Shown: in pieces, positions 2,718 to 23,122 of the stretch | Layout of the letters: the number at the start of each line of letters is the position of its first letter | Numbering within the stretch: position 1 is the stretch's first letter | Virus record (IMG/VR): IMGVR_UViG_3300037104_000377 | Location: 1-23,122 of that record | DNA: 23,122 nucleotides | Strand: one strand, 5' to 3' | Origin: a virus | Notes under the pieces: model-generated | Databases searched by the model: none | What the model was told of the DNA's origin: nothing | Seen by the model: only the letters and a program-made list of their open reading frames with translations | Translations under genes and position numbers: made by a program

Positions 2718-3421
2718 TCAGCCCCTCCTTTGAAGCGCGGCCATCAAATGCCGCTGCCGAAACGCCAGAGCGTCAGGATACTTCCTCTGGCCGTTCCGCA
2801 GCATGAGTTCGAAGAACCCTTCGGTCGCGGCCCAGTCTAATGTGGCAGTAATGACGCTGTCGGGCTCACGCCAATAGTCTCGGCCGGTATCGAGATCGGC
2901 AAGGAAGCGGCGAACGCCATAACATCCAATGATGAACTCCGCGCACCCCACAGGTGGTCGATCATCATCAGGATCGCTTCCAGTTTCGTCCTCTGATTCC
3001 TGCCGCGCAAAACCGCTGACGCACAGATAAAAAAAACGATTGCGCCTTCAATCTGTTCGATATCTTCCGGATCGATCAACTGGCGCGAGAGCGCAACCTC
3101 ATATGGCACCGTCTCCCATCCCTTGCCGGTCGGCAGCACGATATTTGTCAGGCGGCGGATTTCGTTAAGCAGACCCTGTTGGACACCGCTCTCGCCTTCC
3201 CATACGCCATCTATTCGAGCCAAACGTTCCAGCATGAGACAAGCCACCGATGGCCCGGCGATCGAGTGAAGTCCCTGAGCGAAGATCTGGGAGTATGTCT
3301 TCGCCAGAATCAGGAAATAATTGCGCCAAACCTCCAATGAGACCGGCATGGAGTGAATGTGTATGATTCCTGACTCGGTTTCGATTGATTGGACGAGGAA
3401 AAGCCTGCGGTCGATTTTCAA
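2718..3421 (-). CDS. Tail assembly chaperone GT fusion made by -1 frameshift
   Basis: Predicted long product of the chaperone pair. Codons 1-131 are shared with the short form from 3421. The ribosome slips back one base on T_TTT_TTT (3035-3029) and continues with TAT at 3029, giving YLCVSGFARQ and an acidic linker, then the frame ending at 2718. That adds 103 residues, for about 234 in total. The downstream frame has no convincing start of its own: a GTG at 2951 lacks a Shine-Dalgarno. It is closed upstream by a TGA at 3050-3048, so the slip must lie below 3048, and the T run sits exactly there. In phage lambda and many other tailed phages, G and GT-type proteins coat the tape measure during tail assembly. 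An alternative is a sequencing indel in the T8 run, which would make one plain gene. Confidence 0.75.
2837..3421 (-). CDS. Tail assembly chaperone, short (G-like) product
   Basis: The zero-frame product, 194 residues, begins with TTG at 3421, one base after the TAA of the tail tube gene (3425-3423). A weak GACGGTG lies upstream. Met25 (ATG at 3349) is an alternative start but lacks a Shine-Dalgarno. Residues 1-131 are shared with the frameshifted form, and the remaining 63 residues are unique to this form. I recognise no motif. The call rests on position between tube and tape measure genes, on the size and on the slippery heptamer with an overlapping -1 frame. In the family the short form is made in excess and the fusion in small amounts. 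Confidence 0.7.
   Translation of the reverse strand: MKIDRRLFLVQSIETESGIIHIHSMPVSLEVWRNYFLILAKTYSQIFAQGLHSIAGPSVACLMLERLARIDGVWEGESGVQQGLLNEIRRLTNIVLPTGKGWETVPYEVALSRQLIDPEDIEQIEGAIVFFICASAVLRGRNQRTKLEAILMMIDHLWGARSSSLDVMAFAASLPISIPAETIGVSPTASLLPH
3029..3035 (-). promoter_or_regulatory. Slippery heptamer T_TTT_TTT for -1 ribosomal frameshifting
   Basis: On the minus strand the zero-frame codons are ATC GTT TTT TTT ATC (3040-3026). The heptamer uses the last T of GTT and both TTT codons, so it is in the exact X_XXY_YYZ phase. The T run is 8 bases (3036-3029). No strong downstream stem-loop is obvious by eye. A weak GCG...CGC pairing follows about 10 bases later. Confidence 0.75.
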
Positions 3422-6654: not shown

Positions 6655-7157
6655 TCAGACATCCACGCGACGAAACTGTCGCGAAATAAGCCAGTGTCAC
6701 GGAAAGAAGGTCTGGGTGGATTATTCTTGGAATAAGGATGCAAAAACGAATGGTTCACCCCCCGCAACGACGCCCGCGTGGGAACGCCAGGATATCCGAG
6801 GCTGTCCATCTCCTTGCTGTTGATGAAGGTGTTGAACAGGGTCTTGGCTTCACTCTCGGCCGCGATGAATGTCGGCTTATTCCGACCGGAGCCGGACATT
6901 CTGTCGTCAAGGAAGTCTCGCATATCCTCGGTTATGGTGTCGGCAATCTCCTGGCCGTGGAGTTCCCAGAATATCTCGATGATATGATAACGAGCCTCCA
7001 GGATCTGCGCGACTTCATAGGTAGTTCCGTGCTGTTCCGCCTCGCCGAACGCCGCTCGGATATCGTTGCGCTTCTGGCGGCGCTTCTGGCTAAATGTTTT
7101 CGCGGGGGAAGGATCGTGCGTATAAGGAATATCCACGACGCCCAGACTGAGAATCAT
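6651..7157 (-). CDS. Probable tail completion / neck protein
   Basis: A 168-residue protein. I choose ATG at 7157 because it overlaps the upstream stop as ATGA (7157-7154) and has GGGGAC 8 bases upstream; a longer TTG start at 7169 is less likely. The middle is helical and charged. The C-terminus, NPPRPSFRDTGLFRDSFVAW, resembles the ending of HK97 gp10-like and other tail-completion proteins, where a 'RPSF-x-DTG' loop is seen. Such proteins join the head portal complex to the tail. Position just after the connector gene fits. The family assignment is tentative. Confidence 0.6.
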   Translation of the reverse strand: MILSLGVVDIPYTHDPSPAKTFSQKRRQKRNDIRAAFGEAEQHGTTYEVAQILEARYHIIEIFWELHGQEIADTITEDMRDFLDDRMSGSGRNKPTFIAAESEAKTLFNTFINSKEMDSLGYPGVPTRASLRGVNHSFLHPYSKNNPPRPSFRDTGLFRDSFVAWMSE

Positions 7158-18837: not shown

Positions 18838-19019
18838 GGCTAACTCCAACGGCAGTCGTGGTTATCGGGCGGTTTGTGGATTCTGTCCACGCCAGCCCGC
18901 CTGAACCTCCCCATGGCTGAAGCGAGGGGCTTGCGCGCCGTTTTCGGTCAAGGTGGATGGCCTCGCGTGCTCGGCCCGGTTGGCTTCTTCCTGGGAAATT
19001 TCCTTGCTACAAATATCCC

Positions 19020-19082
19020 GGGGAGTTTGAGGGGCAGCGCCCCTCTGGGGAGTTTGAGGGGTGTCCCCTCATTGGGAGTTTG
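19020..19082 (+). repeat. Tandem repeat units each with a GC-rich hairpin (REP-like)
   Basis: The 15-mer GGGGAGTTTGAGGGG occurs at 19020-19034 and 19047-19061, and a partial third copy TGGGAGTTTG lies at 19073-19082. The period is about 27 bases. Each full unit runs into a hairpin: GAGGGGC-AGC-GCCCCTC (19029-19045, 7 bp) and TGAGGGG-TGT-CCCCTCA (19055-19071, 7 bp). The two hairpins differ in loop and one base pair but keep pairing. Alphaproteobacterial chromosomes often have similar GGGG...CAGCG...CCCC intergenic palindromes. There is no T-run on either strand, so a simple terminator is unlikely. Confidence 0.75.
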
Positions 19083-19234
19083 TTCAGGCTCCGAAGTTTC
19101 CGATCGACGGGCCGTGGTCTTGGTACCTCAGGTCACACGGAGATAGGGCTCTTGATTGAGGCGCGCGCGCGATTGGTCCTGTTCGTTTCCGTGTATGTCA
19201 ATGGGGGTCTGAGATATCGGCCATTTGCGCGGGG

Positions 19235-19433: not shown

Positions 19434-19847
19434 TCAATCGGGCGTCCGCTGCTGTTCGACGTATTGGCGCACGATGCTGAGTGGCGCACCGCCGCAGGAG
19501 GCGGCGAAGTAGGACGGGGACCATAGGACGCCTTTCCAGTAGCGGTGCGCGATGTCGGGCCGGGCTTGGCGCAACAGGCGGGAGGACACGCCCTTGAGGC
19601 TGTTCACTAGCGCCGAGATGGCGACTTTTGGCGGATACTCGATCAGCAGATGCACGTGGTCGTCTTCGCCGTCGCACGCGCGAAGCTCGGCTTCGAAATC
19701 GGTGCAGACTTTGGTGAAGATGTCCCGCAGCGTCTCTATGGCGCGGCCGTCGAACACGTGGCGTCGGTATTTCGCGACAAAGACCAAGTGGACATGGAGC
19801 GCTGAAACGCAGGAACGGCCTCGCCGTATGTCGCTTGCATTCGTCAT
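19434..19847 (-). CDS. tnpA: IS200/IS605 transposase TnpA (Y1 HUH)
   Basis: 137 residues, the normal length. The HUH metal-binding motif is H64-V-H66 in DDHVHLLIEYPP, and the catalytic Tyr is Tyr129 in IVRQYVEQQ. Other family features are ALHVHLVFVAKYRR near the N-terminus and YWKGVLWSPSYFAASCGG. It cuts and joins single-stranded ends next to the hairpins through a 5'-phosphotyrosine link. The ATG at 19847 lies 22 bases from the tnpB start, so the two genes are divergent and share a promoter region of only those bases plus the gene starts. No damage is visible. Confidence 0.93.
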   Translation of the reverse strand: MTNASDIRRGRSCVSALHVHLVFVAKYRRHVFDGRAIETLRDIFTKVCTDFEAELRACDGEDDHVHLLIEYPPKVAISALVNSLKGVSSRLLRQARPDIAHRYWKGVLWSPSYFAASCGGAPLSIVRQYVEQQRTPD

Positions 19848-19869
19848 AGACCAACTGTATCATTGCGGC

Positions 19870-21075
19870 ATGGTTATCCGCAAGGCCAACACCTACCGGC
19901 TCTACCCGACGCCCGAGCAAGCGCAGCAGATGGCGCAGATCGCGGGTTCGTGCCGGTTCGTGTTCAATCTTGCGTTGGAACAGCGGCGCGACTGGTGGAA
20001 GCCGGGGCGGACATTCAACTTCGCCAGCCAATGCCGCGAAGTCACCGCGCTGCGTGCCGAGGTTGATTGGCTGAAAGCGGCACCAGTCCATACGTTGCAA
20101 CAGGCGCTCAAAGATTTGGACCGGGCCTATCAGAACTGGTGGGCAGGCCGCGCGGACTATCCGACGCCGCGCAAGAAGGGCCTGAACGACAGTTTCCGGT
20201 TTCCCGACCCGGTTTCGATTAAGGTTGAGCGCACGGGCACATCGTCCGGCCGAATCAAGCTACCGAAGCTGGGCTGGATCAGGCTTCGAGCCTGGTATGC
20301 CATCCCCGGCGAAATCTGCAATGCGACCGTCTCGCGCCGCGCTGGGCTATGGCGTGTCGCGGTCCAGTGGCAGCGCGAGGTAGCCGATCCGGTGCCGTCC
20401 ATCCTGCCAGCGGTCGGCATAGATCGTGGCGTGGCAGTATTCGCGGCACTGAGCAACGGCACGATGATTGCGCCGGTTAATCACGGCAAGAAGGCACTCC
20501 GGGCACTTCGGAAGGCGCAACGCAACCTGAGCCGCAAGAAACGTGGCGCGGCCAACAGGCGCAAGGCTATCCGCCGCGTCGCGAAAATTCAGATGCGGGT
20601 TGCGAACGCCCGCAAAGACTTCCTCCACAAAACAACTACCGACATTGCCAAGAACCACGGCACAGTCGTTGTGGAGGCGCTGAAGGTGCGGAACATGGTC
20701 CGCTCTGCGAAGGGCACCGTGGCCGAGCCGGGCAAGAAGGTCCGCCAGAAAGCCGGTCTGAACCGCGCCATTCTCGACCAAGGTTGGGGCGCATTCCGCA
20801 CGATGCTGAACTACAAGCTGGCGGATCGCGGCGGCAAGCTGATCGAGGTTCCGGCTGCCTATACCAGCCAAACATGTGCCGTATGCGGCGTGGTGGATGC
20901 GGCGAGCCGCCAAGATCAGGCGCGGTTCGTCTGCACGTCCTGCGGCCACGAGGCCAATGCCGACACGAATGCGGCGATCAACATTCTACGGCGTGCGGAT
21001 TGCGCGTCGAAGCCTGTGGAGGGGCACCGCTCTAAGCGGCCCGTTGAAGCAGGAAGCCTTCGGAGGGCTGCTTGA
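19870..21075 (+). CDS. tnpB: TnpB, RNA-guided RuvC-like nuclease of the IS605 element
   Basis: 401 residues from ATG at 19870; the frame is open further upstream, but that part is the complement of tnpA. The N-terminal domain opens with MVIRKANTYRLYPTPEQAQQ. The RuvC residues are Asp185 in AVGIDRGVAV, Glu269 in TVVVEALKVRNM and Asp365 in NADTNAAINI. The zinc ribbon is C336-x2-C339 and C355-x2-C358. All are present, so the nuclease looks active. TnpB proteins use an RNA from the element's right end to cut DNA next to a target motif, which helps the element persist after excision, and they are the ancestors of Cas12. The 3' end probably overlaps the RNA gene. Confidence 0.93.
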   Translation: MVIRKANTYRLYPTPEQAQQMAQIAGSCRFVFNLALEQRRDWWKPGRTFNFASQCREVTALRAEVDWLKAAPVHTLQQALKDLDRAYQNWWAGRADYPTPRKKGLNDSFRFPDPVSIKVERTGTSSGRIKLPKLGWIRLRAWYAIPGEICNATVSRRAGLWRVAVQWQREVADPVPSILPAVGIDRGVAVFAALSNGTMIAPVNHGKKALRALRKAQRNLSRKKRGAANRRKAIRRVAKIQMRVANARKDFLHKTTTDIAKNHGTVVVEALKVRNMVRSAKGTVAEPGKKVRQKAGLNRAILDQGWGAFRTMLNYKLADRGGKLIEVPAAYTSQTCAVCGVVDAASRQDQARFVCTSCGHEANADTNAAINILRRADCASKPVEGHRSKRPVEAGSLRRAA

Positions 21076-21119: not shown

Positions 21120-21311
21120 AGAAAGGCTGGATATCCGATCAGTCCCGCGACGTTGGCCTCCGCAGTCACACGCGGACATTCCCCGGTGTTCAGGGGAAGT
21201 CGGCTCGGTGGTGAGGCGCCGGGGTGGCGGAAACATTCCAGGGAGCTCGCGGTGGCGGCGCGGCAGCCGTCTGCCGCCTTCTTTGACATTGGTTTTTCCT
21301 TTTCAGAGTGA
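21120..21311 (+). pseudogene. 3' fragment of the regulator gene split by the IS element
   Basis: 63 codons ending with TGA at 21309-21311, in frame with the 15 codons left of the IS once it is removed. It begins RKAGYPISPATLASAVTRGH, which looks like the recognition part of a small excisionase/AlpA-like helix-turn-helix ('G-x-P-I-S-P-A-T-L ... R-G-x-x-P-x-F'). The remainder (ELAVAARQPSAAFFDIGFSF) is less typical. As it stands it has no start codon of its own and is translated only if read through from the IS. The alternative is that this is non-coding and the frame is chance. Confidence 0.45.
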
Positions 21312-21360
21312 AATGATGGCGTATTTCCGCCGTTTGTGTTGTGTGAATTGACTTTTGAAT

Positions 21361-21492
21361 AGGTGGGTTAGGTGGCTTTGGTGGGTTTGTTTTGGCAAAC
21401 GTGCAAAAACTGTCATGGCATTACGATATAGCAACGGTGACAGTTTACAGGAGCGCGCCGAAAGTAACCCACCGAAGCCACCAAACCCACCC
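21361..21492. repeat. 132-base nested inverted repeat with three 9-base repeats in each arm
   Basis: The outer arms, 21361-21396 and 21457-21492, match at 30 of 36 positions when one is reversed and complemented. Inside are perfect inner arms, AAACTGTCA (21407-21415) and TGACAGTTT (21438-21446). Both pairs share the same centre (between 21426 and 21427). The left arm reads as tandem 9-mers GGTGGGTTA, GGTGGCTTT, GGTGGGTTT, and the right arm on the other strand reads GGTGGGTTT, GGTGGCTTC, GGTGGGTTA. Iterated, symmetric binding sites like this suit a replication origin, a partition site or a repressor operator. Which one cannot be told here. I see no gene in 21312-21526. Confidence 0.8.
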
Positions 21493-21526
21493 ACTCATCG
21501 GGCTTCTTTGTGTTAGTGCGGTTAGT

Positions 21527-21688
21527 TCAGCGCTTGTATTGCTCCTGGTGTCGCTCCATTGCGTGGAGCATGGCGTCACTGTCGTGCCATCCCGCGGCCC
21601 AGCTCCACGCAAAGGGGCCTTTCAAATAAGGATTTTCAGACAGTTGTAGTCCATTGTAGCGGGCTTCACGTCCTTCAGTGTATGCCAT
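21527..21688 (-). CDS. Rmf/CrpP-like small protein
   Basis: 53 residues from ATG at 21688, chosen because AAGGAG lies 8 bases upstream; a longer frame to 21751 overlaps the preceding gene more and lacks a site. The pattern EGREARYNGLQLSENPY ... FAWSWAAGWHDSD resembles the ribosome modulation factor / CrpP fold, with 'EG..A...G....NPY', a short loop and 'W..GW'. Rmf causes ribosome dimerisation in resting cells, and CrpP-like relatives are common on phages and plasmids with mostly unknown roles. The resemblance is short, so function is open. It is the last gene of the right-hand run. Confidence 0.6.
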   Translation of the reverse strand: MAYTEGREARYNGLQLSENPYLKGPFAWSWAAGWHDSDAMLHAMERHQEQYKR

Positions 21689-21717
21689 CGTGAGGGCTCC
21701 TTCAGGCGTAGGTAATT

Positions 21718-21942
21718 TCAGCGGGCATCCATGGGGATACGGCGCTCGCACTCCTCTGCCGACAGTGACGGAGCCGCGAGGCTAGGCATGCGTCCAGCCG
21801 CGTTTTGCTTCTTGATCCGATCTATCCAAAAGGTTTCTTCCGGTGTCGCTTCCCGGATAGCAGTGGGGGAAAATGGGATTGCTTCCCCCTCATCCCACCA
21901 CTGGTTGAAGCCACCGCTATTCGTCGCCACGCGATAGGTCAT
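21718..21942 (-). CDS. Small phage protein, unknown
   Basis: 74 residues, ATG at 21942 overlapping the upstream stop as ATGA (21942-21939), with GGGGAG immediately before it, so translation probably depends on coupling. The sequence shows TYRVATNSGGFNQWWDEGEA, then ATPEETFWIDRIKKQNAAGR and a Pro/Ser/Ala-rich tail. No family recognised. The two Trp next to Asp-Glu may mark a protein-binding patch. It belongs to the small-gene run. Confidence 0.55.
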   Translation of the reverse strand: MTYRVATNSGGFNQWWDEGEAIPFSPTAIREATPEETFWIDRIKKQNAAGRMPSLAAPSLSAEECERRIPMDAR

Positions 21943-22742: not shown

Positions 22743-22922
22743 TCAGTTCCTCCCGAGCGTAAAGAAGGCCAGCGCTCCAATGACCGTGAACCATATCGCC
22801 AGCACGATTATGAGCCGATTACGTATCCTGCGCCTCTGGCGGTACATCTCAAAGTCGTGCCGCGCGCGCTCGACCGCGTCATGGTACGAGTCCAGGCGAC
22901 CCGGCGGGGGCGGAGCTTTCAT
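22743..22922 (-). CDS. Small single-span membrane protein
   Basis: 59 residues from ATG at 22922, which overlaps the stop of the previous small gene as ATGA (22922-22919). An N-terminal Pro and charged helix (SYHDAVERARHDFEMYRQRR) is followed by one membrane span, LIIVLAIWFTVIGALAFF, and a short tail. The positive residues before the span suggest a cytoplasmic N-terminus. A longer GTG frame to 23012 only shadows the upstream gene. It might work with the 50-residue membrane protein encoded just before. Holin or superinfection-exclusion roles are possible, but no motif supports either. Confidence 0.55.
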   Translation of the reverse strand: MKAPPPPGRLDSYHDAVERARHDFEMYRQRRRIRNRLIIVLAIWFTVIGALAFFTLGRN

Positions 22923-23071
22923 GCCAGCCACGAGAATATACAGCCGAGAATCCCACCAAAGAAAAGCATAAACCCTCGTCGCCAATGGTACCGGAACGTG
23001 CGGTCTTCCCACGCCGTGCGGCGGTCGTGGTACGGCATTCCCATGGGAAACAGGTTTATCGGGGTACGCAT
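22919..23071 (-). CDS. Tiny membrane protein, 50 residues
   Basis: ATG at 23071 with a perfect AGGAGG about 9 bases upstream. The 50-residue frame begins MRTPINLFPMGMPYHDRRTA and ends with one hydrophobic segment, GFMLFFGGILGCIFSWLA, that reaches the C-terminus. The TGA stop is inside ATGA with the next gene. The strong ribosome binding site and exact overlap are better evidence than length. The single Cys in the span is notable. No family is recognised. Confidence 0.55.
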   Translation of the reverse strand: MRTPINLFPMGMPYHDRRTAWEDRTFRYHWRRGFMLFFGGILGCIFSWLA

Positions 23072-23075
23072 GGCG

Positions 23076-23122
23076 TTATTCCTCCTGTCTGATTTCCAGC
23101 GCGGCTGTGGCGAGCTTGTAGA
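23076..23122 (-). CDS. C-terminal end of an upstream gene, cut by the window edge
   Basis: A frame entering from the window edge and stopping with TAA at 23078-23076, reading YKLATAALEIRQEE at its end. Its last codons include the AGGAGG for the next gene, which fits the tight gene packing here. Only 14 codons are visible, so neither function nor reading frame can be verified further. Confidence 0.4.
   Translation of the reverse strand, partial: YKLATAALEIRQEE

Follow-up and report, generated by a model that had tools for sequence, protein, structure and literature searches.

A mirrored iteron element in a phage genome fragment is a putative replication origin separated from its primase-helicase initiator gene

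We analysed a 132-bp inverted-repeat element in a virus record of 23,122 bases (hereafter the window, meaning the whole stretch of DNA analysed, which is itself a fragment). Judged from its sequence and that of its relatives, the element is very likely an origin for a self-loading primase-helicase initiator, separated here from the initiator gene. An origin with iterons was among the readings offered in the first-pass annotation of this DNA, and it is strongly supported by our analysis, as many phage and bacterial genomes carry the same element at the 3' end of a primase-helicase initiator gene. We read it as a SaPI/P4-like iteron origin because the dyad follows primase-helicase genes in the relatives, and because the helicase is predicted to have a D5/SaPI5-like fold.

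The repeat structure noted at first pass was confirmed in full (Table 1). The two 36-bp outer arms match at 30 of 36 positions and share a centre, at 21426.5, with the perfect 9-base inner arms, and each outer arm contains three tandem 9-mers of the pattern GGTGGNTTN. Within these 9-mers the outer arms mismatch only at iteron position 9, which is degenerate, and all six iterons carry a perfect 8-base core, GGTGGNTT, found in only three further copies in the remainder of the 23 kb. The earlier claim that this order exceeds chance also held. In a scan for 36-bp arms with gaps of 0-150, the best pair in the window had 30 matches, against 22-25 in dinucleotide shuffles of the window (n = 30) and 24 in the window with the element removed. 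The iteron triplets, three per side, flank a spacer of ~78-80 bp, as do the two iteron sets of SaPI/PICI-type origins, and this spacer is 46% GC against 57-61% in the flanks, which is lower but not strongly AT-rich.

Table 1. Positions of the parts of the element and of neighbouring features in the window.
Feature	Position	Strand	Remarks
TnpA Y1 transposase (IS605-type)	19434-19847	-	beside the element
TnpB (IS605-type)	ORF 19552-21075	+	domains begin near residue 107
Segment missing from related contig L128	19116-21498		contains the IS605-type insertion and the origin-like element
Left outer arm	21361-21396	+	three direct 9-bp iterons GGTGGGTTA/GGTGGCTTT/GGTGGGTTT at 21362-21388
Inner dyad, left half AAACTGTCA	21407-21415	+	recurs in relatives
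Spacer between inner arms	21416-21437		45% GC, against 57-61% in the flanks; putative melting site
Inner dyad, right half TGACAGTTT	21438-21446	+	followed by ACAGGAGCGCGCCGAAA
Right outer arm	21457-21492	-	three inverted 9-bp iterons, - strand GGTGGGTTT/GGTGGCTTC/GGTGGGTTA

We identified relatives of the element by its DNA pattern. When we looked for runs of three GGTGGNTTN units, 105 viral stretches were returned, many of which were single arrays, probably coding for Gly-rich repeats, and were set aside as they had no inverted copies. The remaining loci share a layout of forward iterons, ...TGTCA...TGACAGTT...CAGGAGCGGGCCGAAA..., and inverted iterons, and the ACAGGAGCGCGCCGAAA motif to the right of the inner dyad is common to elements of the L014, L033 and L054 type. 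A direct search for the inverted pair recovered 8 viral stretches and 12 bacterial genome contigs, the latter from Kiritimatiellae, Lentisphaerae, Burkholderiales, Azonexus, Limnohabitans and Candidatus Adiutrix. The search of related phages for the 9-mer and arms, as proposed at first pass, therefore recovered the same dyad in viral contigs. Comparison of the element's DNA with named phages and plasmids gave nothing useful, and the whole window had no match among phages and plasmids.

In the relatives, which carry phage terminase and portal genes, the element lies tens of bases past the stop of a long open reading frame or overlaps its last codons. The scanned neighbours at full-dyad loci were primase-helicases, of either the Prim-Pol/PriCT_2 plus helicase type (PHROG 29234) or the CHC2/Toprim type, except at L262 and at the weakly dyadic L028. 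Although contigs L114 and L126 end near the element, the C-terminus of an initiator is still visible in both, and in L114 there is also a match to the A2 profile 203 bp from the element. With L042, L064 and L028 left out of the count of exceptions (contig end or weak dyad), the full dyads without an initiator neighbour are clearly that of the window, and possibly that of L262. In loci of the Kiritimatiellae type, the iterons form part of the 3' coding sequence of the initiator gene (translated as Gly-Gly-Phe or Asn-Pro-Pro), and since they lie inside its last codons this sequence is both coding and presumably origin. Toprim/CHC2 primase-helicase genes whose final codons contain the inverted iterons were observed at L111-L113, L115, L119, L122 and L265.

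The association was also examined in reverse, from the initiator genes. An alignment of seven initiator proteins led to 79 loci, 75 of them with a usable 3' end. In the 450 bp 3' of the stop, 45 of these 75 genes had GGTGGNTT in at least one orientation and 30 had it in both, compared with 2 of 1210 random windows that had both. At many of the other genes the mirrored layout is kept but the iterons differ (examples are AGGGGTTT, TGCGGGT, GTCGAT and GGGGGGATT). A sequence-blind test of PHROG-29234-type genes, within 330 bp of the stop, identified a tandem 8-mer with an inverted copy 3' of the gene in 25 of 35 non-redundant genes, against 4 of 1929 random windows and none of 34 5' flanks; for 8 of the 35, no iteron pair was detectable in a 7-mer test. 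Among the Pseudomonadota genomes sampled, 33 of 398 have the initiator family, and the 8-mer pattern was found at 10 of 19 loci (two of which are not independent, having been found by the iteron pattern itself) against 68 of 666 control windows, which were larger. The iteron sequence varies between lineages. These loci provide a sequence handle by which the origins of uncultured phages could be located, and a natural series in which to follow the joint change of initiator domain and iterons.

We modelled the helicase and C-terminal part of one such initiator, from L075, with AlphaFold2 (535 residues, 36 sequences, pLDDT 92). The model matched vaccinia D5 (VIA; Z 14.2, 316 aligned, 5.5 A) and the SaPI5 primase-helicase (Z 14.0), as well as PriRep1 with dsDNA, NrS-1 and other D5-type primase-helicases, and the modelled L075 helicase thus resembles vaccinia D5 and SaPI5 PriRep. 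The isolated C-terminal domain, a helix-strand-helix, gave weak matches, mostly to winged-helix DNA-binding proteins, with none above Z 5.0 among the matches listed, where an absent match excludes nothing. A correspondence between iteron sequence and C-terminal domain beyond overall relatedness was not significant (partial Mantel p = 0.37).

We infer the following course of initiator binding, melting and priming in both directions, and with it any activity of the element in this phage. The initiator would be a D5/SaPI5-type helicase with a C-terminal DNA-binding domain, through which its subunits would contact each triplet of 9-bp iterons. The inverted iterons would seat two hexamers face to face on the ~80-bp lower-GC spacer, the spacer would melt at the inner dyad, and the fused primase would prime both strands, leading to bidirectional replication. 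In the window, recombination, the IS605-type insertion or both may have split the origin from its initiator gene, and it would then depend on an initiator supplied in trans by another part of the genome, or else be a leftover. The GC-skew analysis suggested at first pass was run on the fragment, where it was too weak to inform and gave no usable turning point.

The element is intergenic, in agreement with the first-pass annotation, and lies between the TnpB transposon and a small minus-strand gene (21527-21751). Short open reading frames overlapping it, at 21303-21494 (-) and 21392-21649 (+), are without support, and the latter had no PHROG match. The TnpA (-) and TnpB (+) genes are divergent, with the 507-aa TnpB frame overlapping TnpA; the true TnpB start is probably near 19860, given where its first domain begins. 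Minus-strand genes of the window encode portal, small terminase, SLT-domain and DUF6456 proteins, and a large terminase gene is also present. The related viral contig L128 matches the window on either side of the segment that it lacks (18947-19115 and 21499-21731, 86-96% identity). The right junction falls 7 bp from the outer arm and, in the window, interrupts an intrinsic terminator hairpin of which L128 has an intact copy. The small gene at 21527-21751 weakly resembles ribosome modulation factor, at a level below the cutoff (PF04957, E 1.6e-4), and has a match to PHROG 10492. The right end of the window (22753-23122) matches a ~170-bp repeat with two copies in L128 (1775-1944 and 2282-2451, 98% alike), so the window contig probably ends at this repeat.

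The element is very probably an origin of a known general kind, following the logic of SaPI/PICI and pRN1 origins, here in phages. PICI origins consist of two iteron sets around an AT-rich stretch, 3' of rep (PMC6092414). The SaPI/PICI pri-rep-ori arrangement is similar to that described here in that two short-iteron sets flank a lower-GC spacer (PMC6092414, PMC7581432), and in that the element of the relatives is directly 3' of a primase-helicase gene, whose helicase fold model matches SaPI5. It differs in that we find 3+3 strictly inverted 9-mers together with an inner ACTGTCA/TGACAGT dyad, and in that the window element has no adjoining initiator gene. In contrast to satellites without structural genes, the window has portal, small and large terminase and SLT-domain genes, and since portal and terminase genes are present, as they are in the relatives, it is not a PICI. 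With neither an adjacent initiator nor a PICI context, this copy is best described as working like those origins, and not as a member of their class.

The pRN1 (ORF904) origin of Sulfolobus plasmids, which has also been proposed for Bordetella phage BIP-1, is likewise an inverted-repeat element of ~100-130 bp 3' of a gene combining primase, SF3 helicase and DNA-binding domain. However, pRN1 keeps structure over sequence, with no iterons identified as the origin, whereas here the 9-mer is kept within a lineage. In BPP-1, no obvious inverted iterons were seen by eye 3' of the primase gene bbp29. The P4 alpha protein with ori-crr is a fused primase-helicase initiator with iteron sites, and our system is likened to it by that description. 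Alpha and its cognate site are mentioned in PMC6092414. In SCCmec, the C-terminal domain of the Cch2 helicase binds short repeats situated downstream of the gene that encodes it (PMC7581432); this putative origin shares the position of its repeats downstream of a helicase gene, but has three 5-nt direct repeats in place of two mirrored triple 9-mers. The distinguishing features here are the strictly mirrored triple 9-mers and the extra conserved inner dyad, and a similar layout, with many iteron sequences, extends across terminase-bearing phages and across loci from groups that include Pseudomonadota, Kiritimatiellae and Lentisphaerae.

We found no PHROG-29234-type initiator gene in the 23-kb window, either with the PHROG model or by tblastn with 16 initiators, and no initiator-gene remnant when we looked to the left of the element. 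The position immediately 3' of an initiator gene, observed in the relatives, is thus not shared by the window copy, whose neighbours are the IS605-type transposon and small genes of no known function. As the right half of the element is asymmetric, the initiator gene would be expected to its left, on the side taken up by the transposon, and the absence of this gene suggests that the origin has moved or been borrowed. As the window covers a fragment, an initiator could be encoded beyond its ends, and as a working reading we take the origin to be displaced and served by such an initiator. Displacement is plausible because the pRN1 origin, 3' of a primase-SF3 gene, still works when moved on its plasmid (PMC4234260), and because the iterons of L186 sit 473 bp downstream of the initiator gene. 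It is possible, if somewhat unlikely, that the element is a dead relic, that is, the origin of another replicon which was recombined in, or left behind after its initiator was replaced or lost, and which no longer fires. The lack of an initiator in 23 kb is consistent with this, as are the location of the element in the segment absent from L128, with a junction so close to the arm that it cuts the terminator hairpin, and the use of other replication genes by phages whose terminase is related (the primase of L108 is a different one, PriCT_2/AAA_25, L110 had no PHROG-29234 match, and L128 itself has a DnaB-like frame, recognised by eye). However, the six perfect cores and perfect inner dyad argue against long decay, since drift should have mutated the cores unless the event were very recent. 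We consider it improbable that the element is a captured origin acting in trans, either copied by the primase-helicase of a co-resident or superinfecting phage (hitch-hiking) or serving as a decoy that titrates that initiator. A copy without an adjacent initiator raises the question of whether such origins move between phages alone.

The displaced iteron origin has also to be weighed against readings in which the 9-mers play another part. In a pRN1-like structural origin, the initiator would recognise a cruciform-extruded stem-loop and the iterons would be incidental, which we regard as hardly likely. The single-stranded element is predicted to fold strongly (-38.8 kcal/mol, z = -7.8) into a long stem-loop of the pRN1 type (loop of roughly 60 nt), and pRN1 uses a stem-loop of ~100 bp that lies 3' of the primase-SF3 gene (PMC4234260). 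Yet pRN stem-loops keep structure and not sequence, whereas the iteron core is kept at 45-50/50 positions in the GGTGG class; the arms differ at the degenerate ninth base without compensation, so that position-9 pairing is not kept in the window; and L014 and L149 have unequal arms but retain their GGTGGNTT copies. The large cruciform envisaged at first pass could be extruded, but with mismatches at the degenerate ninth base and unequal arms in relatives, the arms appear to be kept as putative 9-mer binding sites, not as a paired stem. A regulatory role, as phage operator, partition centromere, transcription terminator or RNA element, is highly improbable. Inverted 9-mer arrays would also fit repressor or ParB binding, and an intergenic position is compatible with such a role, but the recurrent partner in relatives is a primase-helicase gene. 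An Rfam search of the element returned no RNA family, a scan inside it identified no terminator or promoter, and there was no repressor or Par match among the window frames scanned with Pfam or PHROGs, which are part of those in this fragment record. For the partition centromere and main phage operator put forward at first pass, we accordingly found no evidence.

The inner dyad, A[C/G]TGTCA...TGACA[C/G]T, was identified in 13 of 35 non-redundant relatives against 3 of 1909 control windows, and recurs with several different iteron sequences. We rejected the idea that it tracks primase type, as it occurs with both Prim-Pol/PriCT_2 (L174, L212) and CHC2/Toprim (L214) genes. In L198, L203 and L218, another inner dyad, TTTnGCA...TGCnAAA, replaces ACTGTCA/TGACAGT; the helicase frame of L198 and L203 spans only ~530 aa, so a separate gene may encode the primase in these two.

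We additionally noted two further repeat arrangements. L262 contains another GGTGGATT dyad (6858-6995), a second candidate orphan origin, with no A2-family initiator gene in its 67-kb record. In L108, a cluster of GGGACAT/ATGTCCC repeats (2720-3010) lies directly behind the PriCT_2/AAA_25 primase gene, and is probably another origin built on the same logic with a different iteron.
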